Source: Oricola sp. (GTDB lineage Bacteria > Pseudomonadota > Alphaproteobacteria > Rhizobiales > Rhizobiaceae). From it: DNA of 64,000 nucleotides. Location: the NCBI RefSeq assembly GCF_022763245.1, contig NZ_JALEGV010000032.1, forward strand, positions 62,001-126,000. The letters are read 5' to 3'. Each line of letters opens with the position of its first letter. Within the stretch, counting starts at the first letter, position 1. A program made the translations under genes and the position numbers. The notes beneath the pieces were generated by a model. The model did no database searches and was not told the origin of the DNA. It saw nothing but the letters and a program-made list of their open reading frames with translations. This document shows positions 8,923-27,078 of this stretch, in pieces.

Positions 8923-8932
8923 CCGTATACAT
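8923..8932. promoter_or_regulatory. GTATAC-type operator candidate upstream of the ATZ/TRZ amidohydrolase
   Basis: CCGTATACAT contains the palindromic hexamer GTATAC and matches TGTATACA at seven of eight positions. It is flanked on both sides by ATGCC. It lies 67 bp upstream of the minus-strand ATG at 8858 and is one of the variant members of the site series seen before the C1 genes. Confidence 0.4.
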
Positions 8933-9098
8933 GCCGCGGGAGGCAGATACTGGCGCGCGGCGCGCGCCTCGCGGTGTGCCGGTCGCGTTTTCATGCGGAT
9001 TTTGGGAGGGTTTTCTGCCTCGTGTCACCCGTATCTCTGGGGATGGCAGTACTGCGCAGTTGGCGCGCGTTGCGAAAGCTGCATAATGGGACAGCCCA

Positions 9099-9106
9099 TG
9101 CATACA
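9099..9106. promoter_or_regulatory. Variant operator in front of the GntR gene
   Basis: TGCATACA, one mismatch from TGTATACA, ends 13 bp before the GntR start codon. This is a position that would allow autorepression. Confidence 0.35.
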
Positions 9107-9119
9107 TAAAGAAAACGCC

Positions 9120-9854
9120 ATGAAACAACCCGCGAACAAGACCCACGCCTCTCGCACGGTGATCGAACTGCGCAAGAAAATCCTCGGGGGAGACCTGGTG
9201 GGCGGCACACGCTTGTTCGAGGTTCCGCTGGCGGAGGAACTGGAAATCTCGCGCACGCCGCTGCGGGACGCCATGTCGAGACTGGCCGAGGAAGGCCTGC
9301 TCGAACGCGCGCGGGGCGGCGGGTTTGTCGTGCGTCAGTTCAGCTTCGCGGATGTGATCGATTCCATCGAGTTGCGCGGCGTGCTGGAAGGCACCGCGGC
9401 GCGGCTGGCGGCCGAGCGCGGCGCCGTGCCGGAGGGGCTCGAGCGCATGGAGGCGATCGTCGCCTCGCTCGACGACTGCTTCGGCGAGATGCCGGGCGAA
9501 GTCGATTTCGAGGCCTATTCGGACTTGAACGCCCAGTTTCACGAGGGTCTGGCGGGTCTGGCGGGCAGCGAGATCGTGCGCCGCGAGATCGAGCGGGCGG
9601 CGCGGCTGCCCTTCGCGTCGCCCTCGGCCTTCCTGCCGGACAAGGGCGACATCGCCGCCTTCCGCCGTTCTCTGAACTTCGCCCAGGAGCAGCACAAGGC
9701 GATCATCCAGGCGATCCGCTCGCGCGAAGGGTTCCGCGCCGAATCCGTCGCGCGCGAACATGCGCGTACGGCGCGGCGCAATCTCGAATACATCCTGCAC
9801 GAGGATCGCAGCCTGATGCAGCACGTGCCGGGCTTTGCGCTGGTGGTGGCCTGA
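9120..9854 (+). CDS. GntR-family regulator, FCD subfamily (candidate regulator of the TGTATACA sites)
   Basis: 244 residues. N-terminal winged HTH (FEVPLAEELEISRTPLRDAMSRLAEEG, about 37-62), then a helical FCD domain with SDLNAQFHEGL and late QEQHKAIIQAIRS helices that usually bind a metal and a small carboxylate. It is divergent from the amidohydrolase and convergent with the EamA exporter. A near-copy of the TGTATACA element sits right before its ATG and another GTATAC in the same intergenic region. This makes it the best candidate for binding the same element at 11033, 18478 and 27070 (inference from position; other regulators are possible). Confidence 0.85.
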   Translation: MKQPANKTHASRTVIELRKKILGGDLVGGTRLFEVPLAEELEISRTPLRDAMSRLAEEGLLERARGGGFVVRQFSFADVIDSIELRGVLEGTAARLAAERGAVPEGLERMEAIVASLDDCFGEMPGEVDFEAYSDLNAQFHEGLAGLAGSEIVRREIERAARLPFASPSAFLPDKGDIAAFRRSLNFAQEQHKAIIQAIRSREGFRAESVAREHARTARRNLEYILHEDRSLMQHVPGFALVVA

Positions 9855-9872
9855 CGCCGCCGGGCGGAGCGC

Positions 9873-10823
9873 CTAGGCTGTTTCGGAAATCGCCGCGGCG
9901 CGCCGGCCCGCCAGAAGAAGGCCGTAGAGGGCGATGACGATGACGGCCATCGCCGCGACCTGATAGGTTTCGACCTGTCCTCCAAGCAGCAACACGCTGA
10001 TCAGCATCGTGACGGCCGGGACGGGGACCGTGACGGAACTCGCCAGCGAGACGTCTATGTGGCGCATGGCGTGGAACCACAGAACGAGTTCCGTGTAGTA
10101 GGCGAGCCCCAGCAGCATCGCGGCGAGCTGGAACCGGCCGTCCGTCGCCGCGGCGACGAGCGTGCCCATGTCGCCGACGACGGCATAGACCGCGAGCAGG
10201 AAAACGCCGGAGATGACCAGCCGCGAGACGGTGACCTGATTGGGCGTGACGGGCGTTTCGGCGAGGATCTGGCGAAGCAGGATGTGGGCGATGCTCCACA
10301 GGAGCGGGATGCCGAGCGCGAATGCCGACCACCAGGAGATGTCGGTCACCCGCAGGCTGCCCTGCGTGGTGAGATAGTAGAGCGCGCCGATGAGAAGCGC
10401 GGTGAATCCCAGTTCGGCGGCGGTCTTGCGCTTGCCGAGGAAGAGGGCTTCCAGGAGAATCGCGAAGAGCGGGTATGCCTGGAGTACGATCGCCATGCTG
10501 ACCGGGCCGGCGTTCCGGGCGGCGACCACATACATGTAGGTCGATACGCCGAACACCGCGCCGGTGAACAGGGCGATGGCGATGACGCGGGTGTTCGGCC
10601 GAGGCCGGGCGTGTGCGATGGCGCGCTTCGCGCGTCCGCGGCGCTCCGCGAAGAACAGCGGCAGGCTGGCGACGAGCTGCCAGAATGTCAGCCAGACGGT
10701 GAAGGTCAGCCCGTCGGATCCCGCCGGCCGCGCTTCGGCGAGGAGCGGCATGACGCCGAGAATGATCAGGCAGGCAAACGAATAGACGATGCCGGTGCGG
10801 CGGGAGGGTGACATGGCGGGCAT
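9873..10823 (-). CDS. EamA/DMT-family transporter
   Basis: About 316 residues with ten hydrophobic segments, in two EamA repeats (first from GIVYSFACLIILGVMPLL, second from WWSAFALGIPLLWSIAHILL). This is the drug/metabolite transporter superfamily, a cytoplasmic-membrane exporter of unknown substrate. The N-terminus is uncertain: GTG 10904, ATG 10823 and ATG 10814 are all in frame and none has a good Shine-Dalgarno; 10823 or 10814 puts the first membrane segment near the start. It is convergent with the GntR gene. Confidence 0.8.
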   Translation of the reverse strand: MPAMSPSRRTGIVYSFACLIILGVMPLLAEARPAGSDGLTFTVWLTFWQLVASLPLFFAERRGRAKRAIAHARPRPNTRVIAIALFTGAVFGVSTYMYVVAARNAGPVSMAIVLQAYPLFAILLEALFLGKRKTAAELGFTALLIGALYYLTTQGSLRVTDISWWSAFALGIPLLWSIAHILLRQILAETPVTPNQVTVSRLVISGVFLLAVYAVVGDMGTLVAAATDGRFQLAAMLLGLAYYTELVLWFHAMRHIDVSLASSVTVPVPAVTMLISVLLLGGQVETYQVAAMAVIVIALYGLLLAGRRAAAISETA

Positions 10824-11032
10824 TCGCGGGTTCAGGGGCGGTCGGACGGGTGCTGAGCCCAGCTTTGCCGATCGGTAAGGCACCGGCAACGCAATGTTTG
10901 TCACGATGACATTTCTCTGCGCGCGGGGCGCGAACCTGCGTTTCGTGGCAACGCGCGGTTATCAAAGGGCGGGCAATTTCGTCGCGGCGGGGTGGAAATC
11001 GCTTGCAACATCGCGCGCTATCCGGCAGAGGA

Positions 11033-11040
11033 TGTATACA
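11033..11040. promoter_or_regulatory. TGTATACA operator candidate, first demethylase
   Basis: Perfect 8-bp palindrome TGTATACA, 29 bp upstream of the chosen ATG at 11070. No TTGACA-like hexamer lies 16-18 bp upstream, so reading it merely as a -10 box is not well supported. Confidence 0.5.
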
Positions 11041-11069
11041 CGATAATCGATAACTGAGGAGGAATGCTC

Positions 11070-12482
11070 ATGTCAAAATCGTCTCTCGCCGAAGTTCTCA
11101 AGGGCGTAAGCAGCCCGGTCGAGCTGCTTCGCAACTCGAAAATCGGCATGTATGTATACCCGGTGGTCGCGCCGGAATTTTCGAACTGGCGCAGCGAGCA
11201 GGCTGCATGGCGCGATGGCGCCGTGTTGTTCGACCAGTCGCATCACATGGACGAAGTGATCGTCGAAGGCCCGCAGGCGACCGAGTTTCTAGCCCATCAC
11301 GGCATCAACTCCTTCTCGAATTTCGGCCTGAACCGCGCGAAGCACTACGTGCCGGTGACGCCGAACGGTCACGTCATCGGTGACCACATCATCTTCCGGG
11401 AGCGCGAAGACAAGTACATCCTCGTCGGCCGCGCGCCGACCTCCAACTGGCTGCTGTTCGCCGCTGCCTGGGGCAAGTGGAACGTCCGCATCCGTCACGA
11501 TCCCCGTTCGCCGAGCCGGCCGGAAGGCGAGCGCGTGCTGCGCGAGCATTACCGCTTCCAGATCCAGGGGCCCGAGGCTCCGAAGGTCTTCGAGAAGATG
11601 AATGGCGGTCCGATCCCGGACATCAAGTTCTTCCACGTCGACTGGATCAACATCGGTTCCAAGAAGGTTCAGGCGCTGCGTCACGGCATGGCCGGCGCGC
11701 CGGGTCTGGAAGTCTGGGGTCCCTACAAGGACAAGGACTACATCCACTCGACCATCATGCAGGCGGCCAAGGACGCCGGCGTCGACCTGGTTCAGTGCGG
11801 AAGCCGCGCCTACTCCACCAACACGCTGGAATCGGGCTGGATCCCGTCCCCGCTGCCGGGCATCTACACCGGCGACGGCATGCTGGCCGACTACCGCGAG
11901 TGGCTCGGTGCGGACATGTATGAAGCGGCCGGCGCGATCGGCGGTTCCTTCGTCTCCGACAACATCGAAGACTACTATGTGAACCCGTTCGAGCTGGGCT
12001 ACGACTTCTACATCGGCTGGAAGAAGGACGACTTCGTCGGCAAGGCCGCCCTTGAGAAGATCAAGGCCGAAGGTCCGAAGCGCAAGAAGGTCACCTTCGA
12101 GTGGAACCCGGAAGACGTGCTCAAGGTCATCGCGACCGCTTTCGAGCAGGGCACCCCGGCCAAGTGGATCGACTTCCCGCAGCCGAACTACGCTTCGTCG
12201 TCCGCCGACCTGATCCTGAAGGACGGCAAGAAGGTCGGCATGTCGATGTTCAACGGCTACTCCTGGAACGAGCGTCGCTGCCTGTCGCTGGGCGTCGTCG
12301 ACATCGACATCCAGGAAGAGGAAATCCTCACCCTGGTGTGGGGCGAGCCGGAGACCACCGGCAAGACCTCGACCGAGCCGCACAAGCAGACCGAGATCCG
12401 CGTTCGCGTCGCTCCGACGCCGTATGCGGCCGAGGCTCGCGAAAACTACGCCGACAGCTGGCGCACCAAGAAGGCCAGCTAA
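11070..12482 (+). CDS. LigM/DesA-type tetrahydrofolate-dependent demethylase (GcvT family)
   Basis: 470 residues, the length of the vanillate/syringate O-demethylases LigM and DesA, and longer than glycine-cleavage GcvT. The N-terminus LRNSKIGMYVYPVVAPEF, the DQSHHM segment, ILVGRAP and the GSRAYSTNTLESGW block match this family closely. Tyr30, the VGR arginine and the RAY tyrosine correspond to LigM substrate/catalytic residues as I recall them. It should transfer a methyl group from a methoxy- or N-methyl substrate to THF, forming 5-methyl-THF for the MetF homologue at 18603. ATG 11070 is preferred to 11064 because GAGGAGG ends 7 bases before it. Base and codon use look strongly biased, suggesting high expression. 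The substrate is unknown. Confidence 0.85.
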   Translation: MSKSSLAEVLKGVSSPVELLRNSKIGMYVYPVVAPEFSNWRSEQAAWRDGAVLFDQSHHMDEVIVEGPQATEFLAHHGINSFSNFGLNRAKHYVPVTPNGHVIGDHIIFREREDKYILVGRAPTSNWLLFAAAWGKWNVRIRHDPRSPSRPEGERVLREHYRFQIQGPEAPKVFEKMNGGPIPDIKFFHVDWINIGSKKVQALRHGMAGAPGLEVWGPYKDKDYIHSTIMQAAKDAGVDLVQCGSRAYSTNTLESGWIPSPLPGIYTGDGMLADYREWLGADMYEAAGAIGGSFVSDNIEDYYVNPFELGYDFYIGWKKDDFVGKAALEKIKAEGPKRKKVTFEWNPEDVLKVIATAFEQGTPAKWIDFPQPNYASSSADLILKDGKKVGMSMFNGYSWNERRCLSLGVVDIDIQEEEILTLVWGEPETTGKTSTEPHKQTEIRVRVAPTPYAAEARENYADSWRTKKAS

Positions 12483-12821
12483 GCCGAATTGCGACCCGGC
12501 TCCACGAGGGCCGGGTCGTCTCGCATCTGCCGGCGGCGAGGCGGTTTCCGCATCTCGCCGCCGACAGTTTGACGCAGGGCGGTTCGGCGGAGATCCGTCG
12601 AAACAGATTGCGTTGACGCATGAAATGAGGCCCTATGGGCGCGTCCGGCGACCGCGGTTGCAAGCGGTCGGGACCGGACGGCCCGAATTCGGGAATGCGT
12701 CGGGCGGGAGCAGTGGGCCCTGTCGCATTTCGTCATCAACATCAAAGGTCTGATTGTCTGCCTCGTAACAGAGGGCGCCGGCTCCGCGATCAGTCGAAAC
12801 GACCAATCTGGGAGGTTTCAG
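12483..12821. other. Intergenic region between demethylase and TRAP genes
   Basis: 339 bp with a hairpin near its start (12492-12518), then no convincing gene. Short frames here have no ribosome binding site. A promoter for the TRAP genes is expected, but no clear -35/-10 pair or TGTATACA element was found. Confidence 0.6.
12492..12518 (+). terminator. Hairpin after the first demethylase gene
   Basis: CGACCCGGC and GCCGGGTCG form a 9-bp perfect stem with a 9-base loop, starting ten bases after the stop codon. There is no U-tract after it, so it may be a weak terminator or an mRNA 3'-end stabiliser. Confidence 0.6.
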
Positions 12822-13826
12822 ATGTTTAACCCGACCATGAAAAGCATGACCGCCGCCATCGCCGCCACCGGCGTGGCCGCCACGATGACCGTTGTTTCCG
12901 CGCAGGCGGATTCCCTGAAATTCGCCAGCTGGGTCCCGCCCTTCCACACGATCACCAAGGGTGTGGTCGAGCCGCTGACCAAGGCGGTGGACGAAGGCAC
13001 CGGCGGTGCGACGACGATCGAATATTTCCCGGGCGGCGAGCTCGGTGCCGGTCCGCTGGAACAGTATGTCCGCGTCGTGCAGGGCGTTGCCGACATGTCG
13101 TGGGGCCTGCCGGGCTACACCTCCTCGCAGTTCCCGAAGACCATGCTGGCCGAACTGCCGGGCGCCAAGGGCGACATGCCGGGCTACGAACTGCTGTGGA
13201 ACGCATTCGACGCCGGCATGCTCGACCGTGAATTCCCGGCGACCAAGCCTATGGCCCTGTGGCTCAGCGAGCCGAACATCTTCATCATGAAGGATCACGA
13301 GGTCCGCACCCCCGACGACGTCAAGGGCCTGAAGATCCGCGTGTCCGGCGCGATCGCCGGCGACGTGATGTCGGCGCTGGGCGCCACGCCGGTGCAGATG
13401 CCGGCCGGCGAGATCTACAACGCGCTGCAGACGGGCCTGATCGACGGCGTCGTGACCGGCACCAGCGCGGTTGGCGACTTCAAGCTCGACGAAGTGGCAA
13501 ACTCCTACACCTACAACGTGCCGCTGGGCCAGATCGCGTTCTACACGATCATGAACCAGAAGGCCTATGACGGCCTGTCCGCCGAGGCGAAGGCCGCTTT
13601 CGACGGCATTTCCGGCCGCGCGCTTTCCAAGAGCGCCGAGGATGCCTGGAACGAGAAGGCGGACGCCGTGCTGGAAAGCATGAAGGCTGCCGGCGACAAC
13701 ACGATCATCACGCTGACGGATGAAGAGGCGGCCGCTTTCGCCGCGCTCACCCTGCCGGTGACCGAAAAGGTCGTGAATGATCTCGGCGCTGAAGACGTCT
13801 ACAAGACGATGCGCGGAGAGATGTAG
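12822..13826 (+). CDS. dctP: TRAP transporter periplasmic solute-binding protein (DctP family)
   Basis: 334 residues with an N-terminal signal peptide (about 1-29, cut after AQA) followed by the DctP fold: LKFASWVPPFHTITKGVVEPL, EYFPGGELGAGPLEQ, the GLKIRVSGAIAGDV segment with the conserved carboxylate-binding Arg, and the PAGEIYNALQTGLIDG motif. It binds the solute in the periplasm and hands it to DctQM encoded next. ATG 12822 has GGGAGG upstream. The Arg points to an organic-anion substrate; the neighbouring demethylases suggest a methylated or methoxylated acid (inference). Confidence 0.9.
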   Translation: MFNPTMKSMTAAIAATGVAATMTVVSAQADSLKFASWVPPFHTITKGVVEPLTKAVDEGTGGATTIEYFPGGELGAGPLEQYVRVVQGVADMSWGLPGYTSSQFPKTMLAELPGAKGDMPGYELLWNAFDAGMLDREFPATKPMALWLSEPNIFIMKDHEVRTPDDVKGLKIRVSGAIAGDVMSALGATPVQMPAGEIYNALQTGLIDGVVTGTSAVGDFKLDEVANSYTYNVPLGQIAFYTIMNQKAYDGLSAEAKAAFDGISGRALSKSAEDAWNEKADAVLESMKAAGDNTIITLTDEEAAAFAALTLPVTEKVVNDLGAEDVYKTMRGEM

Positions 13827-13835
13827 GACCAACAC

Positions 13836-14348
13836 ATGCGCGCCATCATCTGGCAATGGGCGGACAGGCTGATCAGCCTGTCCGCATTCGTCGGCACCGT
13901 CGGCCTCATGGTCGGCGTTGTCGACATTTTGATCGACGTGGTCGGTCGCGAATTTCACATGCCCCTGAAGGGCGCCCAGGACATTTCGCAGATGGCCATG
14001 GTGACCATGGTCTTCGGCGGAATGGCGATCGCCGACCGGATGAATTCGCATATCGCGGTCGACATCTTCGAGGGCGTCTTCTCCGAGCGTCTCAACCGCA
14101 TCACCCAGATCATCGCTCCGCTGATCGGCGCCCTGGTCTTCGTGATGCTGGCCAAGGCCATGTGGGACGCCGCCGCATTGTCGCGGATGCTCAACCTCGC
14201 GACGAACATCATTTACCTGCCCAAGGCCTGGTTCCAGTACATGGCGGTGGTCATGTCGGTGATCACGGCGCTGGCCATGATCCTGCGCGCCGTGGACAAC
14301 ATCCTCGGCCGGCCCATGACCGAACACGGGATTGATACGACGCTATGA
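13836..14348 (+). CDS. dctQ: TRAP transporter small permease (DctQ family)
   Basis: 170 residues with four membrane segments (LISLSAFVGTVGLMVGVV, the ISQMAMVTMVFGGMAIAD region, IIAPLIGALVFVMLAKAM, YMAVVMSVITALAMIL). The FHMPLKGAQD loop before TM2 and the IADRMNSHI motif are typical of DctQ. It starts 10 bases after dctP and overlaps dctM by four bases. Confidence 0.88.
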   Translation: MRAIIWQWADRLISLSAFVGTVGLMVGVVDILIDVVGREFHMPLKGAQDISQMAMVTMVFGGMAIADRMNSHIAVDIFEGVFSERLNRITQIIAPLIGALVFVMLAKAMWDAAALSRMLNLATNIIYLPKAWFQYMAVVMSVITALAMILRAVDNILGRPMTEHGIDTTL

Positions 14349-15649
14349 ACGAATTTGCGGTCGGCGGCATCGGGATGGCCATCCTTTTGATGCTGCTCGC
14401 TTTCCGGGTTCCCGTTGCCTTCGCGATGTTCACCGTGGGCTTCGTCGGCATTTCCATCCTGCACAACCCGGCCTCGGCGATGAGCCTGCTGGCCTCGGAG
14501 AGCTTCACGCTCGCCTCGTCGCAGGAGCTGGTGGTCATCCCGCTGTTCATCCTGATGGGCAATGTGGCGACGGTCACCGGCATGAGCCGCAGGCTCTATG
14601 ACGCGGCCTATGCCGTCATCGGATCGTTCAGGGGCGGGCTTGCGTCGGCCACCGTGATCGGCTGCGGCGGTTTTGCCGCGCTGTCCGGGTCCTCGGTCGC
14701 CTCGGCCTTGACCATGGGCAAGGTCTCGCTGGTCGAGATGGACCGCTTCAAATACGATCCGCGCCTGTCCACCGGCGTGGTCGCGGCGGGCGGCACGCTC
14801 GGCATTCTCATCCCGCCGTCGACGGGCTTCGTGATCTACGCGATCCTCGTGGAACAATCGATCGGCCGACTGTTCCTCGCGGGCGTCCTGCCCGGCATCC
14901 TGCTGGCGGCGGTCTTCATCCTGACCGTCACCATGCTTTGCTACTGGAAGCCGGAATTCGGCCCGGCCGGTCCGAAGACCTCGCTCAGCGAAAAGGGGCG
15001 GGCGTTTCTCGGCGCGGTGCCGATCGTCGGCATCACGCTCCTGACCATCGGCGGCATCTATGGCGGGTTCTTCTCGCCGGTCGAGGCCGCCGCGGTCGGC
15101 GCCGGCCTGGTGATCATCGTCGGCTTCGTGATGGGTCATCTGACGCCGATGGGGCTGTGGAAGGCCGCGAAGGACTCCGTCATCACGACCTCGACGGTGA
15201 TGCTGATCGTCATGTCGGCGAGCCTGATCAACCCGTTCCTGGCGCTCAGCCACATTCCGCAGGTGGCGGGCGACTTCCTGGTCAACCTGCCGTTCCCGCC
15301 GCTGGTGATCCTGATCCTGATCCTGCTCACCTATGTGGTGCTCGGCTGTTTTCTCGACAGCCTCGCCATGCTGGTGCTCACCCTGCCGATCTTCTTCCCG
15401 GTGATCGTCAATTTCGGCTTCGATCCGATCTGGTTTGGCGTCCTGGTGGTGCTGACGCTGGAGATGGGGCTGATCTCACCGCCCGTGGGGATGAACGTGT
15501 TCATCGTGAAATCGGTGGCGAAGGACGTTCCCCTAGGGACGATCTTCGCAGGCGTCGCGCCGTTCTTCCTGGCGATGCTGGTGACGCTGGGGATCATCGT
15601 CGCGTTCCCGCAGATCTCGCTGTTCCTGCCGAACACGATGATCAACTGA
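14345..15649 (+). CDS. dctM: TRAP transporter large permease (DctM family)
   Basis: 434 residues with 12 or so hydrophobic segments. Family marks include the FRVPVAFAMFTVGFVG start, IPLFILMGNV, GCGGFAALSGSSVASALTMG, GTLGILIPPSTGFVIYAI and the late GLISPPVGMNVFIVKS. It is the ion-coupled transmembrane subunit that works with DctP and DctQ. The start overlaps the dctQ stop (ATGA), so the three genes form one transcript ending at the hairpin 15664-15684. Confidence 0.9.
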   Translation: MNEFAVGGIGMAILLMLLAFRVPVAFAMFTVGFVGISILHNPASAMSLLASESFTLASSQELVVIPLFILMGNVATVTGMSRRLYDAAYAVIGSFRGGLASATVIGCGGFAALSGSSVASALTMGKVSLVEMDRFKYDPRLSTGVVAAGGTLGILIPPSTGFVIYAILVEQSIGRLFLAGVLPGILLAAVFILTVTMLCYWKPEFGPAGPKTSLSEKGRAFLGAVPIVGITLLTIGGIYGGFFSPVEAAAVGAGLVIIVGFVMGHLTPMGLWKAAKDSVITTSTVMLIVMSASLINPFLALSHIPQVAGDFLVNLPFPPLVILILILLTYVVLGCFLDSLAMLVLTLPIFFPVIVNFGFDPIWFGVLVVLTLEMGLISPPVGMNVFIVKSVAKDVPLGTIFAGVAPFFLAMLVTLGIIVAFPQISLFLPNTMIN

Positions 15650-15663
15650 CGCGTGCTTGCGGT

Positions 15664-15684
15664 CGCCCGTCATCTGGACGGGCG
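15664..15684. terminator. Hairpin between convergent dctM and LysR genes
   Basis: CGCCCGTC-ATCTG-GACGGGCG, an 8-bp perfect stem with a 5-base loop in the 48-bp convergent gap. It could serve both strands; no long U-tract is present. Confidence 0.55.
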
Positions 15685-15697
15685 GTCGCGACCGCTC

Positions 15698-16897: not shown

Positions 16898-16919
16898 GTC
16901 ATATTACCAAATTTCAGAG

Positions 16920-16929
16920 TCGTATACGA
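16920..16929. promoter_or_regulatory. GTATAC palindrome in the LysR/second-demethylase divergent promoter
   Basis: TCGTATACGA, a perfect 10-bp palindrome, 68 bp before ATG 16998 and 22 bp before the LysR start. It shares the GTATAC core with the sites at 11033, 18478 and 27070 but has C/G instead of T/A in the outer positions. Confidence 0.45.
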
Positions 16930-16997
16930 ACTCAGCATAGGCGGATTTGCGCCCGGGATGCTAGGCCGTTGCGACGCTCAATCACGGGAGGAAACAG

Positions 16998-18377
16998 ATG
17001 ACCTACACGTCGCTTGAAGACAGGATCCAGAGGCAGGGCGGTGATGCGCTCGACTTGATGCGCAATGCGCAGACCGGGCGCTACCAGTTCCCGGTGCCGC
17101 CGGAATTCACCACCTGGATGGAAGAGCAGCGGGCCTGGCGCGAATCCGCCGCGCTGATGGACCAGTCCTTCCACATGACCGACCTCTATGTGAGCGGTCC
17201 CGACACGATGCGGCTTCTCTCCGATCTGGCGGTCAACAGCTTCGCCAAGTTCGGGCGCGACAAGGCCAAGCAGCTGGTGTGCTGCAACCACGAGGGCTAC
17301 GTGATCGGCGACGCCATCGTGTTCGGCCTCGAGGAGGACGCGGTCAACATCGTCGGCCGGCCGGTGGTGCCGAACTGGGTGCAGTATCATGCCGAGACGG
17401 GCGGCTACGACGTCACGGTTGAGCGCGACGAACGCAAGCTCGACAATCCCGACAAGCCGCGCAAGACCTATCGCTACGAGGTGCAGGGGCCGAACGCGCT
17501 CAAGATCCTCGAAAAGGTCAATGAGGGTGGCCCGCTGACGACCAAGTTCTTCAACATGGGCGAAATTACCATCGCCGGCTGCAAGGCGCGCACGCTGACG
17601 CATGGCATGGGCGGCGAGCAGGGGCTGGAGATGTGGGGACCGTTCGAGGACGGCGCCAAGGTCAAGGCGGCGCTGCTGGAAGCCGGCGCCGAATTCGGAC
17701 TCAGGCAGGTCGGCGCGCGGGCCTATTCGACCGCCGCGGCGGAATCGGGCTGGGTGCCGTCGCCGCTGCCGGCGATCTTCTCGGGCGAGGGGATGAAGGC
17801 CTATCGCGAATGGCTACCGGCGAATAGTTTCGAGGCGATCTCGTCGCTCGGCGGAAGCCTCGATGCCGAAACGGTCGAGGCCTACTACCTGACGCCGTGG
17901 GATCTCGATTACGGCCGCGTCGTGAAGTTCGACCACGATTTCATCGGACGGGCGGCGCTGGAGGCGATGGCCGAAGGTTCGCACCGCAAGAAGATGACGC
18001 TTGTCTGGAACGCCGACGACGTCCTCGCCGTCTTCGGCGGCATGATGGACGGTTCGGATCTGCCGGCGAAATACATGGAGATGCCGGCCGCCCACTACGC
18101 CACGCATCCCTATGACCGCGTCCTGGTCGACGGCAGGGACGTCGGCGTCTCCATCAGTCCGGTCTTCTCGGCCAACGAGCGGGCCTGGATCTCGCTGGCG
18201 ATCCTGGAAGAGGCGGCAGCCGCGCCGGGCGGGGAGGTCACCGTCGTCTGGGGCGAGCCGAATGGCGGCACAGCCAAGCCGAATGTCGAGCCGCATCGGC
18301 AGATGCAGGTGCGCGCCGAGGTTCATCCCTGGCCGATCCACGAGTCCAGCCGGCAGCACTACCGCGCCCAGACCTGA
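16998..18377 (+). CDS. LigM/DesA-type THF-dependent demethylase paralogue (GcvT family)
   Basis: 459 residues, clearly homologous along its whole length to the product of 11070-12482 (LMRNAQTGRYQFP, MDQSFHMTDLYV, VGRPVVPNW, GARAYSTAAAESGWVPSPLPAI). It should also transfer a methyl group to THF. The position of LigM Tyr31 is Phe31 here, and the DQxHHM pair is DQSFHM, so the substrate pocket differs from the first paralogue while the VGR arginine and the RAY tyrosine stay. GGGAGG precedes the ATG by 7 bases. A strong terminator follows, then metF. Confidence 0.85.
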   Translation: MTYTSLEDRIQRQGGDALDLMRNAQTGRYQFPVPPEFTTWMEEQRAWRESAALMDQSFHMTDLYVSGPDTMRLLSDLAVNSFAKFGRDKAKQLVCCNHEGYVIGDAIVFGLEEDAVNIVGRPVVPNWVQYHAETGGYDVTVERDERKLDNPDKPRKTYRYEVQGPNALKILEKVNEGGPLTTKFFNMGEITIAGCKARTLTHGMGGEQGLEMWGPFEDGAKVKAALLEAGAEFGLRQVGARAYSTAAAESGWVPSPLPAIFSGEGMKAYREWLPANSFEAISSLGGSLDAETVEAYYLTPWDLDYGRVVKFDHDFIGRAALEAMAEGSHRKKMTLVWNADDVLAVFGGMMDGSDLPAKYMEMPAAHYATHPYDRVLVDGRDVGVSISPVFSANERAWISLAILEEAAAAPGGEVTVVWGEPNGGTAKPNVEPHRQMQVRAEVHPWPIHESSRQHYRAQT

Positions 18378-18477: not shown

Positions 18478-18485
18478 TGTATACA
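18478..18485. promoter_or_regulatory. TGTATACA operator candidate upstream of metF
   Basis: Perfect TGTATACA palindrome 118 bp before the metF ATG, just after the terminator of the upstream gene. Confidence 0.5.
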
Positions 18486-18562: not shown

Positions 18563-18570
18563 TGTACACA
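18563..18570. promoter_or_regulatory. Second, variant site upstream of metF
   Basis: TGTACACA, one mismatch from TGTATACA, 85 bp downstream of the perfect copy and 33 bp before the metF ATG. Two sites about eight helical turns apart would allow looping or cooperative binding (inference). Confidence 0.3.
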
Positions 18571-18602: not shown

Positions 18603-19499
18603 ATGCTGAACATCCTGAAACGAGGTAAGAGTGACGCTGCGCCGTCGGACGCGTCGGTGGGCGCATTCCTCGAGGGTTTCTCGATCGAGGTGATGCCGCG
18701 CACGGCCGCGAAGATTGAGGATTTCAACGCGCTCTTGCCGAAGGGCACGCGCGTCTATATCGCCCATATCGAGGGCACGCCGATCGAGGACATGGTCGAG
18801 ACGGCGAAGCGCCTGCACGAGGAAGGCTTTCCGGTGATGCCGCATTTCCCGGCGCGCATCATCAAGGACAAAGAGACGCTTGAAGACTGGATCAAGCGCT
18901 ACCGCGACGAAGCGGGCGTGGAACAGGCGCTGCTGCTGGCCGGCGGCGTGGACAAGCCGCACGGTGAATTCGAGAGCTCGATGCAGCTGATGGAAACCGG
19001 CCTGTTCGACCAGTTCGGCTTCAAGCGGCTGCATGTCGCCGGGCATCCCGAGGGCAACAAGGACATCGACGCGGACGGCTCAACCCGGCTGGTCGATGAG
19101 GCGCTGCAGTGGAAGCAGGCCTTCTCGGAGCGCACCGACGCCGAGATGGCGATCGCCACGCAGTTCGCCTTCGACGCGAAGCCGATCATCGCATGGGCGG
19201 AGCGGCTGCAGGCCGCCGGCATCACCCTTCCGGTCCATATCGGCATCGCCGGCCCGGCCAAACTGCAGACGCTGCTCAAATTCGCCGTCGCCTGCGGCGT
19301 CGGCCCGTCTTTGAAGGTGTTGCAGAAGCGGGCGATGGATATGTCCAAGCTGCTGCTTCCCTACGAGCCCACCGAGGTTCTGGCGGATCTGGCCGCTTAC
19401 AATACGGGCAATCCGGACAGCCTGATCAAGAAGGTTCACTTCTTCCCGCTCGGCGGCATCAAGACCAACGCGACTTACGCTTCCGAACAGATGAAGTGA
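18603..19499 (+). CDS. metF: Methylenetetrahydrofolate reductase (MetF-like)
   Basis: 298 residues of the flavin-dependent MTHFR barrel: TRVYIAHIEGTPIEDMVETAKRL, FPVMPHFPARIIKD, the LLLAGGVDKPHGEF segment, VAGHPEGNKDID, ATQFAFDAKPI and IGIAGPAKLQTLLKFA. It lacks the extended regulatory part of eukaryotic enzymes. In Sphingomonad demethylation the MetF encoded beside LigM oxidises 5-methyl-THF to methylene-THF, and the position here suggests the same direction. ATG 18603 has GGAGG upstream; the frame also opens at 18585. It is monocistronic, convergent with the PAS-LuxR gene. Confidence 0.88.
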   Translation: MLNILKRGKSDAAPSDASVGAFLEGFSIEVMPRTAAKIEDFNALLPKGTRVYIAHIEGTPIEDMVETAKRLHEEGFPVMPHFPARIIKDKETLEDWIKRYRDEAGVEQALLLAGGVDKPHGEFESSMQLMETGLFDQFGFKRLHVAGHPEGNKDIDADGSTRLVDEALQWKQAFSERTDAEMAIATQFAFDAKPIIAWAERLQAAGITLPVHIGIAGPAKLQTLLKFAVACGVGPSLKVLQKRAMDMSKLLLPYEPTEVLADLAAYNTGNPDSLIKKVHFFPLGGIKTNATYASEQMK

Positions 19500-19505
19500 T
19501 CCGGC

Positions 19506-20072
19506 TCAGCCGGGCATGCCGCCGAGCTTTCCCAGGAGCTCGGCGACATTCGCCGCCTTGAATTTCTTCAGGAGCCTGGCGCGGTAGGCTTCCACCGTGC
19601 GCGGCGAGATCTCGATGATGCGGGCGATTTCCTTCGAGGTTCGCCCTTCTCCCAGATACATGACGAGTTGGCGTTCGCGCGCCGTCAGTTCACGCACCGG
19701 CCGTTCATGCGACAGGTCGGCGAAGCTCCACACCGCCTTCATCAGCGGGTCGCCGTCCTCGGTCAGCGTGACGCCGCGCACCCGGCACCAGAACAGCGAG
19801 CCGTCCGACCGCGCCATGATGCGTTCGTCGGAATAGCGACCGGTTTCGCGCAGCGGCCTGACGCCGACGTCGCGGATCTGCACGAATTCCTCGTAGGACG
19901 GATAGAGAATGGCGAAGGACTGATCGACGAGATCGGCCACGTCGAAGCCGAACATGCGCGCGAATGCCGGATTGCAGGTCTTGATGACCCGGTTCTCGGT
20001 CATGACGATGCCGACGGGGGCGTGCTCCCAGGCCAGCAGGTTGATGTCGTCGTAATTCTTCGCGCCAGTCAT
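19506..20072 (-). CDS. PAS-domain LuxR-type response regulator-like transcription factor
   Basis: 188 residues: one PAS domain (about 12-125; HAPVGIVMTENRVIKTCNPAFARMFGF, SLFWCRVRG) and a C-terminal LuxR HTH (about 128-185; LTARERQLVMYLGEGRTSKEIARIIEISPRTVEAYRARLLKKF). There is no receiver domain and no transmembrane part, so it is a one-component cytosolic sensor. It is divergent from the Liv-type ABC operon starting at 20319, which it may control. Confidence 0.88.
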   Translation of the reverse strand: MTGAKNYDDINLLAWEHAPVGIVMTENRVIKTCNPAFARMFGFDVADLVDQSFAILYPSYEEFVQIRDVGVRPLRETGRYSDERIMARSDGSLFWCRVRGVTLTEDGDPLMKAVWSFADLSHERPVRELTARERQLVMYLGEGRTSKEIARIIEISPRTVEAYRARLLKKFKAANVAELLGKLGGMPG

Positions 20073-20318
20073 GCGTGTTTCTACGCTATTGCAAGCCTCG
20101 ATCCCTGGGGCAGATACTATCTCCCGTTCCGCATGTGCAACGAGGAATGTTCATGCGGGCAGGTTCGGCTGTGCCGAGCCGCGGCTGCAACGGCCGCCAG
20201 GGAGGCGTTCGAAAATGCACGGCAGGTTTCGCGATCGCGTGGATGTCCACCGTTTGCCGACCGGCGCGCATCGTCGACGCGTCCGCCGGGCGCTTCGATC
20301 AAAGACGGAGGAATTCAC

Positions 20319-21524: not shown

Positions 21525-21544
21525 GCCTCCTCCCAGGGTCAATC

Positions 21545-21568
21545 GGGCGCGGCGGTCACGCCGCGCCC
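21545..21568 (+). promoter_or_regulatory. Intra-operon hairpin between livK and livG
   Basis: GGGCGCGGCG-GTCA-CGCCGCGCCC, a 10-bp perfect stem with a 4-base loop and no U-tract. Hairpins at this place in binding-protein transporter operons usually protect the upstream mRNA from 3' decay or reduce read-through, so that the binding protein is made in excess. Confidence 0.65.
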
Positions 21569-21589
21569 CATCATGCCGGACGACCAGCG

Positions 21590-22363
21590 ATGACCGCTCC
21601 CTCCATCGAAACGCGTGACCTGACGATCCGCTTCGGCGGCCATACGGCGGTCAATGGCGTCTCCTGCGCCTTCAGGCCGGGCGAACTGACGGTGATCGTC
21701 GGTCCGAACGGGGCCGGAAAGACGACCTATTTCAGCCTGATGTCGGGCCAGCTTGCGCCGAGCGAGGGAGCTATCCTGAAAGGCGGCGTCGACATCACCC
21801 GGCTGTCGCCATCCGCGCGCGCCAAGGCCGGGATCGGCCGGGCCTTCCAGCTGACGAACCTGTTCCCGAAACTCTCTGTGCTGGAGAATGTCCGCCTTGC
21901 CGTGCAGGCGCGTCACGGTGTCGGGCCACGGCTGTTCCGGCCGGCTTCGGCCTTCCGCGAGATCGCCGACAGGGCGCATGAGCATCTGAAGGCGACGCGG
22001 CTGGAGGAAGAGGCCGACCTGCCGGCGGCCGCCCTGCCGCATGGCGACCAGCGCAAGCTGGAGGTGGCGCTGCTTCTGGCGATGGAGCCGGACATCTTCA
22101 TGTTCGACGAGCCGACCGCCGGGATGAGCGTCGACGAGGCGCCGGTGATCCTCGAACTGATCGACGAGATCCGCAAAGACAAATCGAAGACGGTGCTGCT
22201 GGTCGAACACAAGATGGACGTGGTGCGCGCGCTCGCCGACCGGATCATCGTGCTGCACAACGGCGAACTCGTCGCCGACGGACCGCCCGAAGAGGTGATC
22301 GCCATGCCGATCGTGCGCGAGATCTATCTCGGCATTCCGGCCGACGAAGGCGAGGCGGCATGA
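21590..22363 (+). CDS. livG: Liv-type ABC transporter ATP-binding protein (LivG-like)
   Basis: 257 residues with Walker A GPNGAGKTT (38-46), Q-loop AFQLTNLF, the LivG-type signature LPHGDQRKLEVAL, Walker B DIFMFDEPTAG and switch His in LLVEHKMDVV. It is cytosolic, one of the ATPase pair of the importer. The stop overlaps the next ATG by four bases. Confidence 0.9.
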   Translation: MTAPSIETRDLTIRFGGHTAVNGVSCAFRPGELTVIVGPNGAGKTTYFSLMSGQLAPSEGAILKGGVDITRLSPSARAKAGIGRAFQLTNLFPKLSVLENVRLAVQARHGVGPRLFRPASAFREIADRAHEHLKATRLEEEADLPAAALPHGDQRKLEVALLLAMEPDIFMFDEPTAGMSVDEAPVILELIDEIRKDKSKTVLLVEHKMDVVRALADRIIVLHNGELVADGPPEEVIAMPIVREIYLGIPADEGEAA

Positions 22364-23082
22364 GCGACTACATCCTGCGCCTCGACGACGTGCACACCGA
22401 TATCGGCGACTACCAGGTGCTGCACGGCATCTCGTTCAACGTGCCGGAAGGCGGGGTGCATGTGCTGCTCGGCCGCAACGGCGCGGGCAAGACCACGACC
22501 TTGCGCACCATCATGGGGCTGTGGCGGGCGCGGTCGGGCGCGATCGTCTTCAAGCATCACGACATCACGAGGATGCACACCAGCGACATCGCCCGGCTCG
22601 GCATCGCCTATGTGCCGGAGAACATGGGTATCTTCGGCGGGCTGACGGTGCAGGAGAACATGCGCCTGGCGACCGCGAAGGGCGGGTTCGACGATGGCCG
22701 GCTGGGCCGCATCTTCGACTTGTTTCCGGCAATGGAGAAGTTCTGGGCGAAGCCCGCATGGTCGCTCTCCGGCGGCCAGAAGCAGATGCTGGCGATCTCG
22801 CGGGCGATCATCGAGAAGCGCGACCTGATCCTGATCGACGAACCGACCAAGGGGCTGGCGCCGTCGATCATCCGGGCGATGATCGCGGCATTCGAGGAGA
22901 TCTCGCAGGATTCGACGATCCTGCTGGTGGAGCAGAATTTCCTGTTCGCCTCGTCGCTCGGCCGCAATGTCTGCGTGATCGACGACGGGCGGATCGCGCA
23001 TGCGGGCCGGATGGGCGAACTGGTCGAGGACAAGGACCTGCAGACGCGCCTGCTGAGCCTGTCGCTGGACGCGCACCAATAG
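22360..23082 (+). CDS. livF: Liv-type ABC transporter ATP-binding protein (LivF-like)
   Basis: 240 residues with Walker A GRNGAGKTT, signature LSGGQKQMLAI, Walker B LILIDEPTKGLAP and LLVEQNF switch region, which is the LivF pattern. It is translationally coupled to livG by ATGA and pairs with it under the LivH/LivM permeases. Confidence 0.9.
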   Translation: MSDYILRLDDVHTDIGDYQVLHGISFNVPEGGVHVLLGRNGAGKTTTLRTIMGLWRARSGAIVFKHHDITRMHTSDIARLGIAYVPENMGIFGGLTVQENMRLATAKGGFDDGRLGRIFDLFPAMEKFWAKPAWSLSGGQKQMLAISRAIIEKRDLILIDEPTKGLAPSIIRAMIAAFEEISQDSTILLVEQNFLFASSLGRNVCVIDDGRIAHAGRMGELVEDKDLQTRLLSLSLDAHQ

Positions 23083-23090
23083 GGGAGACG

Positions 23091-24095
23091 ATGAGCAACA
23101 ACTCTTCCATCGCTGCGGCATTCGACCGGATCGGCGGGGTCAACGCGCTGCCGGTGATCCTGATGATCGTCGCCCTGCCGCTGGTCGGCTCGTTTTCGTC
23201 ATGGGTGACGCTGACGATCGCCGGCCTCGCCATGGGCATGATGATCTTCCTGATGGCGTCGGGCCTCAGCCTCGTCTTCGGCCTGATGGACGTCCTGAAT
23301 TTCGGCCATTCCGCGTTCATCTCGTTCGGCGCGTTCATCGCGGCGTCGGTGCTGGCGGCGCTGGCGGCCTGGGTCGGCGCGGATTCGCTGACGCTGAACT
23401 TCCTCGCGCTGTTTGCGGCGCTGGGCGCGGCGACCGTGTTCGGTTTGATCGCGGGGCTGTTCTTCGAGCGCGTGATCGTGAAGCCGGTCTATTCCGACCA
23501 TCTGCGCCAGATCCTGATCACCATCGGCGCGCTGATCGTCGCCGAGCAGATCATCCTTGCGATCTGGGGCGGCAATCCGGTCGCCGTGCCGCGACCGGCC
23601 CTGCTCGACGGCTCCTTCATCATCGGCGACGTGGCGATCGAGATCTATCGTGTCTTCGCCTTCTTCCTCGGCCTGGTCGTCTTCATCGCGCTCAATCTCG
23701 TGCTCAACCGCACCCGCATCGGCCTCCTGATCCGCGCCGGGGTGGAGAATCGCGAGATGGTCGAGGCGCTGGGCTTCAAGATCGACCGCATCTTCATCGG
23801 CGTCTTCATGGCTGGCTCGGCGCTCGCCGCGATGGGCGGGGCGATGTGGGCCGGATACCAGGGGCTGATCACCGGCGCGCTCGGCGGCGAATTGATGATC
23901 CTGGTCTTCATCGTCGTCATCATCGGCGGGCTCGGCTCCATCGAGGGGTCGCTGCTCGGTGCGCTGCTGGTCGGCCTGCTGGGCAACTATGTCGCCTTCA
24001 TCTTCCCGAAGCTGTCGCTTGCCTCGAACATGCTTCTGATGATGGCGATCCTGCTGTGGCGGCCGCTCGGGTTGCGGCCGGCGGTCAGCCGATGA
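23091..24095 (+). CDS. livH: Liv-type ABC transporter permease (LivH-like)
   Basis: 334 residues and about eight or nine membrane segments. Typical LivH marks are GLSLVFGLMDVLNFGHSAFISFGAFIA, the RTRIGLLIRAGVENREMVEALG coupling loop and IIGGLGSIEGSLLGALLVG. It starts nine bases after livF. Confidence 0.9.
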   Translation: MSNNSSIAAAFDRIGGVNALPVILMIVALPLVGSFSSWVTLTIAGLAMGMMIFLMASGLSLVFGLMDVLNFGHSAFISFGAFIAASVLAALAAWVGADSLTLNFLALFAALGAATVFGLIAGLFFERVIVKPVYSDHLRQILITIGALIVAEQIILAIWGGNPVAVPRPALLDGSFIIGDVAIEIYRVFAFFLGLVVFIALNLVLNRTRIGLLIRAGVENREMVEALGFKIDRIFIGVFMAGSALAAMGGAMWAGYQGLITGALGGELMILVFIVVIIGGLGSIEGSLLGALLVGLLGNYVAFIFPKLSLASNMLLMMAILLWRPLGLRPAVSR

Positions 24096-24105
24096 GGAGC
24101 CGGCC

Positions 24106-25206
24106 ATGACGACGATCGACCTCGCTTCCGCGCCGCAAGCCGATCCCGCCCGCAGGGGACGGCTGATCGTCTACGCCGTCGTGCTCGCCATCGGGCTGGC
24201 GCTGGCCTTCGCGCCGTTCCTGTTCCAGGACGTGCGCTCCAGCCAGGTGGCGGCGCGCATCTGCGTCTTCATCGTGCTGGCGGCGAGCTACGATCTCCTG
24301 ATCGGCTATACCGGCATCGTGTCTTTCGCCCATACCATGTTCTTCGGCCTTGGCGCCTATGGCGCGGCGATCGCGCTGAAGGGCATGGGTCCGGGCTGGG
24401 GCGCCGTGATCCTCGGCGGTGCGGCCGGCGTGGTGACCGCGATCGTGCTGGCGGTGGCGATCGGTGTGTTGTCGCTGCGCGTCAAGGCGATCTTCTTCGC
24501 CATGGTGACCCTGGCGGCGGCCTCGGTGATGATGGTGCTGGCGTCGCAATTCTCCGATTTCACGGGCGGCGAGGACGGGATCGTCTACAAGGCGCCCGAC
24601 CTGTTCAAGCCAGCGACGAAGCTCTTGACCGACGGTGATGGTAAGGTCCTGAAGCTCTTCGGCGTGTCGATGAACGGCAAGATCGCCGCATATTATTTCG
24701 TGTTTCTCTCCTGCCTGGTGCTGTTCTTCGCGCTAATGCGCATCGTGCGCTCGCCGCTCGGCACCGTGCTGGAGGCGATCCGCGAGAACGAGATGCGCGC
24801 CGAGGCGATCGGCTACCGCGTCGTCGCCTACCGCACCTCCGTCTTCGTCATCGCCGCCGTCATCGCCGCGCTCGCCGGCACGGTCTGGGCGGTCTGGCTG
24901 AAATATACCGGGCCGGAGACGACGCTCTCCTTCTCGATCATGATCGACATCCTGCTGATGGTGGTGATCGGCGGGATGGGCACGATGGTGGGGGCGGTGA
25001 TCGGCGTCGTGCTCATGAGCCTTGCGCAGTTCTATCTGAAGGACCTGATGGAGGTGGCTGCGCAATCGACTTCGGGCGTGCCGCTGTTGCCGGATCTGCT
25101 CGAACCCGACCGCTGGCTTTTGTGGCTCGGCGTGCTGTTCATCCTGCTGGTCTACTTCTTCCCGGCGGGCATTGCGGGAACATTGATGAGGAAAGGCAGT
25201 CACTGA
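24106..25206 (+). CDS. livM: Liv-type ABC transporter permease (LivM-like)
   Basis: 366 residues, with membrane segments starting at LIVYAVVLAIGLALAFAPF, the SYDLLIGYTGIVSFAHTMFFGLGAY motif, the RSPLGTVLEAIRENEMRAEAIGY coupling loop and VVIGGMGTMVGAVIGVV. An extra ~45-residue periplasmic stretch (about 150-185) precedes the coupling loop. Its stop overlaps the following hydrolase ATG by one base (TGATG). Confidence 0.9.
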   Translation: MTTIDLASAPQADPARRGRLIVYAVVLAIGLALAFAPFLFQDVRSSQVAARICVFIVLAASYDLLIGYTGIVSFAHTMFFGLGAYGAAIALKGMGPGWGAVILGGAAGVVTAIVLAVAIGVLSLRVKAIFFAMVTLAAASVMMVLASQFSDFTGGEDGIVYKAPDLFKPATKLLTDGDGKVLKLFGVSMNGKIAAYYFVFLSCLVLFFALMRIVRSPLGTVLEAIRENEMRAEAIGYRVVAYRTSVFVIAAVIAALAGTVWAVWLKYTGPETTLSFSIMIDILLMVVIGGMGTMVGAVIGVVLMSLAQFYLKDLMEVAAQSTSGVPLLPDLLEPDRWLLWLGVLFILLVYFFPAGIAGTLMRKGSH

Positions 25207-26042
25207 TGGTTGAGCGGCGCTCGGTTTACGTTTCCTGCGGCGAACACGAACTGCATGTCAGCACCTGGGGCGACGAGGGCAAGCCGGCGCTGATCATGTG
25301 GCACGGGCTGGCGCGGACCGGCCGCGACTTCGACGAGGCGGCGATCGCGCTGTCGGACGATTATTTCGTGATCTGTCCGGACACGCTCGGCCGGGGGCTG
25401 TCGTCCTGGGCCAAGGATGCCGCGACGGGCTACACATTCGCGACCTACGGGGCCCATGCCGAGGCGATCCTCGATCATTTCGGGGTGACCACGCTGCGCT
25501 GGATCGGGACCTCGATGGGCGGGCTGATCGGCGTCACGCTTGCCGCCGGCGCGCTGAAGGGGCGGATCACCCATCTGGTGGTGAACGACATCGGGCCGTG
25601 GATCCCGGAAGAAGCGGCGGGGCGGATACGCGACTATGTCGGCAGCCCGCCGAGCTTCGACACGATCGGCGAGATGGAGCACTGGCTGCGAACCAGCTAT
25701 GCGCCCTTCGGTCAGAACAGCGACGTCTTTTGGCGGCGCATGGCAGACACGTCGTCGCGACGTAAAGACGACGGTCGCGTGACCGTGCATTACGATCCGC
25801 AGATCGTCAGTCAGTTCACCCTGCACAAATCCGATCTCGATTGCTGGCCTGCCTGGGACGCGATCGGGGCGAAGACCCTGCTGTTGCGGGGCGCCCAATC
25901 GGACGTGCTGCCGAAGGCGGTTGCGTCGGAGATGTGCGAACGCGGGCCGAAACCGGAACTGGTGGAGTTCGCCGGTGTCGGACACGCTCCCACTTTGGCC
26001 ACGAACGACGAATCGCGGCTGCTGCGCGCATTCCTTGCCTGA
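25206..26042 (+). CDS. Alpha/beta-hydrolase-fold enzyme
   Basis: 278 residues with oxyanion-loop MWHGLARTG, nucleophile elbow GTSMGG (Ser103) and a C-terminal GVGHAPTL giving catalytic His260; LLLRGAQSDVLP carries the acid Asp. The family covers esterases, C-C hydrolases and lactonases. It is the last gene of the Liv-type operon (coupled TGATG), which suggests it opens an ester or amide of the imported compound. ATG 25206 is preferred over the long in-frame 5' extension inside livM. Confidence 0.85.
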   Translation: MVERRSVYVSCGEHELHVSTWGDEGKPALIMWHGLARTGRDFDEAAIALSDDYFVICPDTLGRGLSSWAKDAATGYTFATYGAHAEAILDHFGVTTLRWIGTSMGGLIGVTLAAGALKGRITHLVVNDIGPWIPEEAAGRIRDYVGSPPSFDTIGEMEHWLRTSYAPFGQNSDVFWRRMADTSSRRKDDGRVTVHYDPQIVSQFTLHKSDLDCWPAWDAIGAKTLLLRGAQSDVLPKAVASEMCERGPKPELVEFAGVGHAPTLATNDESRLLRAFLA

Positions 26043-26109
26043 CGCGTGCTCATTGCGGGCGCTGACCGGGACGCGATAAAAGGCGTGAAACCGGAGAGGC
26101 GCTGCCCGC

Positions 26110-27000
26110 ATGATCGACAAGCTGGAATTCTTCCTGGCGCTGGCCCGCGAAAAGCATTTCGGCAAGGCTGCGGAAGCCTGCAATGTCAGCCAACCGACGC
26201 TGTCGGCCTCGATCAAGCAGTTGGAGGAACAGCTCGGCGTGCTGCTGGTGAAGCGTGGATCGCGCTTCCAGGGGCTGACGCCCGAGGGCGAGCGCGTGCT
26301 GGACTGGGCGCGGCGCATCGTCGGCGACGCGCGGGCGATGCGCATGGAAATCAACGCCGCGCGGCACGGTTTGCACGGGCGGCTGCGCATCGCCGCCATC
26401 CCGACGGCGCTGCCGATGGTGCGCGAGCTGAGCGTGGCCTTCAACGCGCTGCATCCGGGCGTGAGCTTCACGGTGCTGTCGCGCGCCTCCGACGAGATCC
26501 TTGAACTGGTCGACAATCTGGAGATCGACGTCGGCATCACCTATCTGGCGAACGAACCGCTGGGCCGTGTGGCCAGCCTGCCGCTTTACGAAGAGCGCTA
26601 CATGTTCGTCACCGCGTCGCCCGAGCTGTTCGCCGGCCGCGAGACGGTGACGTGGAAGGAGGCGAGCGCCACGCCGCTCTGCCTGCTGACACCGGACATG
26701 CAGAACCGGCGCATCATCAACCATTATTTCGAGGAAGTCGGCGTCGAGGCGCGGCCGGTGCTCGAATCGGATTCGATGATCGCACTGGTCTCGCATGTGC
26801 TCGCCGGTGCGTGGTCGTCGATCCTGCCGGCGCGGGTCGTCGACATCTTCAACGCGGCAGGGACGATCCGCGCGCTGCCGCTGACGCAGCCGGACGCGAT
26901 CCAGACGATCGGTGTGGTGGCCGAGGAACGCGAACCGCGCACGCCGGTCATCGACGCCCTGCTGAAATGCGCCTCCGTGGTCGCCGGGAAGCTGCTGTGA
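26110..27000 (+). CDS. LysR-family regulator (likely for the formate dehydrogenase operon)
   Basis: 296 residues: HTH at 3-62 (FFLALAREKHFGKAAEACNVSQPTLSASIKQLEEQLG) and a LysR effector domain (LRIAAIPTALPMVRELSVAF onward). It sits directly upstream of and co-directional with fdsGBA, as fdsR-type regulators often do. It may equally act on the transporter operon before it. Confidence 0.85.
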   Translation: MIDKLEFFLALAREKHFGKAAEACNVSQPTLSASIKQLEEQLGVLLVKRGSRFQGLTPEGERVLDWARRIVGDARAMRMEINAARHGLHGRLRIAAIPTALPMVRELSVAFNALHPGVSFTVLSRASDEILELVDNLEIDVGITYLANEPLGRVASLPLYEERYMFVTASPELFAGRETVTWKEASATPLCLLTPDMQNRRIINHYFEEVGVEARPVLESDSMIALVSHVLAGAWSSILPARVVDIFNAAGTIRALPLTQPDAIQTIGVVAEEREPRTPVIDALLKCASVVAGKLL

Positions 27001-27068
27001 GGTTGATAGAGATTTCCTATCAATTGACGGAAATCCATTATTGATCCCGAATGCCGATCTCTGGCATG

Positions 27069-27078
27069 ATGTATACAT
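27069..27078. promoter_or_regulatory. TGTATACA operator candidate in front of the fds operon
   Basis: ATGTATACAT, a perfect 10-bp palindrome containing TGTATACA, ends 25 bp before the fdsG ATG. Same octamer as at 11033 and 18478. TATACA inside it could also act as a -10 element, but I see no matching -35. Confidence 0.5.

Follow-up and report, generated by a model that had tools for sequence, protein, structure and literature searches.

The 64-kb stretch of Oricola DNA considered here (the window) carries a palindromic octamer, TGTATACA, 5' of genes of C1 metabolism, which raises the question of whether these genes answer to a single regulator, which regulator this is and how far its regulon extends. 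The initial annotation had proposed, from three exact copies and several variants, a regulon joining demethylation, methyl-THF oxidation and formate oxidation under the GntR/FCD protein encoded at 9120. The analysis described here indicates that TGTATACA is very probably the core of the operator ATGTATACAT recognized by this protein, the repressor of a methylene-THF regulon of the Atu1419 type.

The octamer in the window and in the genome

Exact copies of TGTATACA are present at 11033, 18478 and 27070, shortly 5' of ligM1, metF and fdsG, compared with an expectation of 0.02 (sd 0.20) for the 64 kb, and shuffling of the window gave a maximum of 2 copies, three or more being reached in 0/100 shuffles. 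Both the earlier estimate of well under one exact copy per 64 kb and that of a G+C content near 64%, which was measured as 65.0%, were thus sound. The variants are also found where they had been placed, namely TCGTATACGA at 16920, TGCATACA at 9099, TGTACACA at 18563 and, inside the site at 8923, a GTATAC at 8925; an additional GTATAC lies at 11154, within the ligM1 gene.

At the level of the whole genome, TGTATACA occurs in 20 places in the organism itself (G000), versus 7 for the reversed control, and the octamer/control counts of five genus relatives (11/14, 5/10, 18/13, 11/9 and 8/10) display no clear excess, so that genome-wide over-representation was dropped as an argument. The enrichment is local, not general. 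This is what a chance cluster of three octamers in the window has in its favour, since most relatives have no more copies of the octamer than of the reversed control; the shuffles speak against it, as do the orthologous promoters, where the octamer is kept at ligM1 and metF across many genera (for fds, in G003 only), and mere coincidence is hardly credible. Since the rarity of an octamer is weak proof on its own, these orthologous promoters constitute the real test of the operator reading, for which the following features form the core:

9099 to 9106, unstranded: predicted variant operator TGCATACA, one mismatch, 21 nt 5' of the gntR start
9120 to 9854, + strand: gntR, FCD/VanR-group repressor and Atu1419 orthologue, by its GntR and FCD domains and its identity to PDB 6z74
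11033 to 11040, unstranded: predicted operator TGTATACA before ligM1, an exact octamer conserved in ligM1 upstream regions
11064 to 12482, + strand: ligM1, THF-dependent vanillate/3-O-methylgallate O-demethylase (NF047885, 625 bits against a cut-off of 580); its start may be 11070, going by the ribosome site
18478 to 18485, unstranded: predicted distal metF operator TGTATACA, an exact octamer similarly placed in G003, G005 and G004
18563 to 18570, unstranded: predicted proximal metF operator TGTACACA, 40 nt 5' of metF and at a spacing of 85 nt from the distal operator
18603 to 19499, + strand: metF-like methylene-THF reductase, divergent (32.8 bits for TIGR00676, whose cut-off is 293.7; no Pfam hit)

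A regulator of the Atu1419 type

The octamer alone cannot name its regulator, because the genome holds 30 FCD matches. The protein of 9120 contains the GntR winged helix (PF00392) and the FCD domain (PF07729), both above cut-off, and a PDB sequence search, combined with a broader literature search, led to Atu1419 of Agrobacterium fabrum (6z74, E = 7e-94). In fact, 155/241 residues are identical in an ungapped comparison with 6z74 (64%), and the residues specifically compared agree in 20/20 cases: the DNA-contact residues His9, Arg31, Glu34, Ser44, Arg45, Thr46 and Arg49 are the same in both proteins, as are Arg86, Tyr133, Asn137, His141, His214 and Asn221 of the ligand site and citrate contacts, and also His192, which was picked by guess and not from the paper. 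Among 74 gntR relatives, 73 retain Arg45 and Thr46 and all 74 retain Arg86, Tyr133, Asn137 and His141, the ligand residues including His214 and Asn221 being kept in 69 to 74; the variable positions are Gly66, Lys175 and Arg183, with Gly66, in the wing, kept in 33/74.

In the portion of PMC7797058 drawn upon here, Atu1419 is described as a tetrameric repressor of a metF-like gene, a ligM-like gene and its own gene, binding ATGTATACAT, with 5,10-methylene-THF as the proposed effector and crystal structures under PDB 6z74, 6za0, 6za3, 6za7 and 6zab. Its DNA binding is relieved by methylene-THF, not by THF or methyl-THF, and deletion of atu1419 raised atu1418 (metF-like) 3.67-fold, atu1419 3.92-fold and atu1420 (a LigM-like demethylase) 1.58-fold. 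Mutation of the operator bases G3 and C8 abolished binding, Arg45 needing the G and the C; binding extended to a degenerate palindrome (8/10), and looping was possible between two palindromes separated by 190 bp (PMC7797058). Binding, repression and the effect of methylene-THF, demonstrated for Atu1419, would by analogy hold for the protein of 9120 too.

The choice of this protein as the best candidate has therefore stood, since it is the orthologue of a repressor whose experimentally established targets match. Besides overall identity and the compared residues, the likeness takes in the operator core, the core targets and the pairing of operators in one target promoter, whereas the gene order differs, the window having an EamA gene between gntR and ligM1 and metF further off. 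The core regulon is thus already known from Atu1419, and the window provides a further member of it. The EamA-type transporter gene (9873-10904, opposite strand) has the same place between gntR and ligM1 in O. indica (L017, G005), and does not lie between them in G001, G003 and G004.

The malonate regulators of the MatR/MdcY type, which are also FCD proteins, have the operator TTGTATACAA, sharing with TGTATACA a GTATAC core, and differ in flanks and targets. Literature searches gave no match for TGTATACA with GntR, for TTGTATACAA with GntR, or for LigM, tetrahydrofolate, Rhodobacteraceae and demethylase combined; for ATGTATACAT, one paper on this regulator was among the matches listed. Neither GTATAC nor VanR was found in the main text of a GntR motif survey (PMC4494728), to the extent that it was covered. 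The LigM-type demethylation of vanillate and syringate is likewise regulated in Sphingobium SYK-6, by DesR, which belongs to the MarR family, unlike the GntR/FCD protein of 9120 (PMC6888825, in the part consulted).

Conservation of the operator in related loci

Related loci were represented by the best 80 of 374 confirmed LigM1 relatives and, for fdsG, metF, gntR, ligB and ftfL, by 30 loci each among the matches listed. The 80 loci contain 179 exact octamers, 175 of which lie within 260 nt 5' of gntR (97), ligM1 (65) or metF (13), in zones which make up 3.2% of the bases; the four outside belong to L064, L078, L083 and L093. Counted gene by gene within 200 nt, with only matches of at least 45% identity starting within 25 residues taken, the sum is 177, the 175/179 figure using 260 nt. 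By comparison, the 64 palindromic octamers of this G+C have a median of 3 copies and 0 in the 200-nt upstream zones, and the next commonest of them, AAGATCTT, has 64 copies, 0 of which fall in such zones. The 10-mer ATGTATACAT was found in 20/61 genomes, some of them lacking a close gntR (e.g. G017).

The exact site precedes 67/74 gntR, 51/79 ligM1 and 12/29 metF genes (200 nt), and every locus having both gntR and ligM carries it before at least one of the two (74/74). Where the gap between these genes is below 60 nt, the site stands before gntR in 25/25 loci and before ligM in 0/25; with a gap of at least 60 nt, it stands before ligM in 48/49. Operator placement follows operon structure, and 25 of the 28 site-less ligM1 regions are explained in this way, the gene lying in an operon with gntR which has the site in front. 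The consensus in the relatives is ATGTATACAT, with conservation extending over the complete octamer and the A and T on either side of it. The only other strong block in the 51 ligM1 promoters is CTTG-like and spans positions -29 to -26 relative to the octamer (C in 29, T in 35, T in 31 and G in 35; n=51); a weaker block, rich in T, covers -36 to -33.

Regarding the individual sites of the window, those at 11033 and 18478 have the octamer exact and depart from the 10-mer ATGTATACAT by one outer base, and the variants at 9099 and 18563 both retain the essential G and C. These variants, already claimed as sites before gntR and metF, gain support because relatives have the exact octamer at a near-equal distance from the gene: in O. 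indica (L017 and G005), TGTATACA and the gntR start are 22 nt apart, and in G004 TGTATACA lies 40 nt before metF. The proximal metF site of G003 and G005 is TGTACACA, as in the window. The two metF sites are 85 nt apart in the window and 85, 83 and 84 nt apart in G003, G005 and G004, respectively, a spacing close to eight helical turns that would suit bridging by one tetramer. Moreover, a close metF orthologue (67-100% identity) is present in 7 genomes, and all 7 have both the site before metF and a gntR orthologue. Among the 23 low-identity MetF-like loci (L132-L154), the site was found in L148 (G034) only, between divergent metF-like and gntR genes, in a layout resembling atu1418-1419. About 3 kb past the window (G000:C9:128995-129807) lies another MetF-like gene, which shares 44% identity with the first; none of the genome's 20 exact octamers is nearby.

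Proposed mechanism of the core regulon

By analogy with Atu1419, the repressor of 9120 would bind near the promoters of gntR, ligM1 and metF, where a single tetramer could hold the metF pair. LigM would demethylate methoxyaromatics such as vanillate, forming methyl-THF (the products of ligM1 and ligM2 are GcvT-fold, LigM/DesA-like proteins), and the metF-like enzyme, presumably acting in the oxidative sense, as has been suggested for Atu1418, would oxidize it to 5,10-methylene-THF. The latter would in turn release the repressor and switch the gene set on, a positive loop by which demethylation would be held down until C1 units flow. A regulon which recurs in many Rhodobacterales and Rhizobiales records is in this way tied to a repressor of solved structure.

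The sites before ligM2, the ATZ/TRZ gene and fds

Four further features bear on the wider limits of the regulon in the window:

16920 to 16929, unstranded: imperfect palindrome TCGTATACGA, a doubtful operator upstream of ligM2 that retains the essential G and C
16998 to 18377, + strand: ligM2, LigM/DesA-like demethylase, below the cut-offs of both NF047633 (597 bits, cut-off 800) and NF047885 (553 bits, cut-off 580)
27070 to 27077, unstranded: candidate operator TGTATACA before fdsG, after a presumed -35 (TTGATC, 27041) and -10 (CATGAT, 27065), both by eye
27104 to 32017, + strand: fdsGBA, NAD-dependent formate dehydrogenase (FdsG by PF01257; FdsB and FdsA by the earlier note and position)

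Within 200 nt upstream of the LigM2 orthologues, neither the octamer nor GTATAC was present (0/5), and the proposal of a site before ligM2 is not supported. The candidate site at 8923 gains no support from relatives either, as none of the 80 loci contains a relative of the ATZ/TRZ gene, nor does one lie next to gntR in the four genus relatives compared.

As had been reported, the window has the exact octamer before fdsG. Among the 30 fdsG loci listed, the exact octamer is found in the window and in G003 only, about 26 nt from the gene, and it is absent from G005, G004 and G001, which keep a related promoter, as well as from 25/25 genomes outside the genus. In the window it is placed directly 3' of the presumed -10, and it gives the impression of having been added recently to a pre-existing promoter; it may be functional or fortuitous. 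Hence, of the single regulon originally put forward, demethylation and methyl-THF oxidation stand, with gntR, ligM1 and metF as targets in agreement with Atu1419, the ligM2 site finds no support, and formate oxidation is a plausible but weakly supported member, present as an exact site in 2/5 genus genomes. The window species and O. indica (G005), which differ at fds, provide a natural test of operator gain. A LysR-type stretch (ATAG...CTATCA) together with TTATTGA or similar (27000-27050 in the window) is common to fds promoters within and beyond the genus (by eye), and a LysR gene lies at 26110.

Extension of the regulon within the genus

Apart from the three copies in the window, the genome's 17 remaining octamers were also examined, together with 39 non-core octamers from the five relatives, the gene starts around them being taken from a simple codon-usage script and not from a gene finder. 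The sites described below at ftfL, ligAB and a PcaD-like hydrolase gene all lie outside the window and hence do not figure in the initial annotation. One of the genes concerned is ftfL, for formate-THF ligase (945 bits; cut-off 652), which has the exact octamer at 48-53 nt in G000, G003, G004 and G005 (4/6 genus genomes), and TCTATACG at 55-56 nt in G001 and in the gntR-less G002. Among 29 readable ftfL promoters of the 30 listed (L297 excluded), the exact site occurs in 4, all from gntR-bearing Oricola; outside the genus, the octamer was found in 0/23 readable ftfL and 0/6 ligA promoters.

At ftfL the octamer follows a TTGC by about 17 nt (by eye) and may double as a -10 box, and G001 and G002 retain CTATAC at this gene without the palindrome, which would suit TATACA being a -10 promoter box only, with the octamer read by no regulator; the authors of the Atu1419 study also placed sites over -10 boxes (PMC7797058, in the portion drawn upon). 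Nevertheless, the CTTG block of the ligM1 promoters leaves TATACA about 24 nt past the -35 hexamer, too far for such a box, and both the conservation of eight bases with the flanking A/T and the dependence of placement on operon structure argue for an operator, so that the promoter box on its own is a very improbable account.

The ligAB genes, whose products pass the cut-offs for protocatechuate 4,5-dioxygenase (LigA) and class III extradiol dioxygenase (LigB), have the site in five genus loci: G000, G003 and G005 carry the exact octamer, and G001 and G004 a copy with a single mismatch. A PcaD-like hydrolase gene (below the PcaD cut-off) is preceded by the exact octamer in G000, G001, G003 and G004. 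In G004 this gene is located about 0.4 kb 5' of gntR, and in G000 it precedes a second pair of ligAB-like genes. Two further octamers, at an alpha subunit-like TRAP gene and a transporter-like gene, are each common to three genomes, and others precede SDR and aldo-keto genes without a clear C1 role, which may serve others of the 30 FCD matches. Regarding the regulator, G001 has a gntR orthologue, yet no exact ftfL or fds site (best metF 43%), and G002, with no close gntR, has neither an exact ftfL site nor a ligB match.

The known Atu1419 regulon differs in this respect, the octamers before ftfL, ligAB, the PcaD-like hydrolase and, in two species, fds being extra in Oricola; in A. fabrum, the upstream part consists of hydroxycinnamate degradation under HcaR, with protocatechuate passing to the pca genes (PMC7797058, in the portion drawn upon). 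No report of an extension to ftfL, ligAB and fds was among the matches listed, and this genus-level extension, traced here from promoter sequences, looks new. We are somewhat inclined to believe that in Oricola a methylene-THF-sensing repressor that at first switched demethylation locally has come to govern a C1-load regulon comprising the demethylase, MetF, ftfL, ring cleavage and some fds operons, the fds operator having been gained recently in a LysR-type promoter. Ring cleavage by protocatechuate 4,5-dioxygenase and formate handling (ftfL and, in two species, fds) could then follow the same signal through the same operator, which may hold and is the least certain step of the scheme.

It is also possible, if less probable, that the core sites belong to this GntR protein and those at fds, ftfL, ligAB and the hydrolase to other FCD regulators with a similar operator, or to chance. 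The number of FCD matches, the octamers 5' of TRAP, SDR and aldo-keto genes, the restriction of the fds site to 2/5 genus genomes and the lack of a clear genome-wide excess in relatives would all fit such a division; the similar spacing of the ftfL and ligA sites in several genus genomes, the fit of the genes to one pathway and the deficiencies of the gntR-less G002 favour the extended regulon instead. The latter would represent a clear case of a folate-sensing switch seemingly extended, species by species, to the rest of the C1 pathway.

Two other sequence elements were observed. At L012:3803, TTGTATACA, perhaps the operator of another regulator, is flanked by a UGSC-like gene, which scores below cut-off, and by a divergent gene with no NCBIfam hit, which we take to resemble a malonyl-CoA decarboxylase gene; another FCD regulator is encoded about 2.9 kb away. 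Furthermore, TTGATTTAGGTCAA is found about 70 nt before ligA in L185 (G000:C33) and, with at most one change, in five genus ligA promoters (by eye); it is close to an FNR/FixK box, through which oxygen or redox state might act on ring cleavage.
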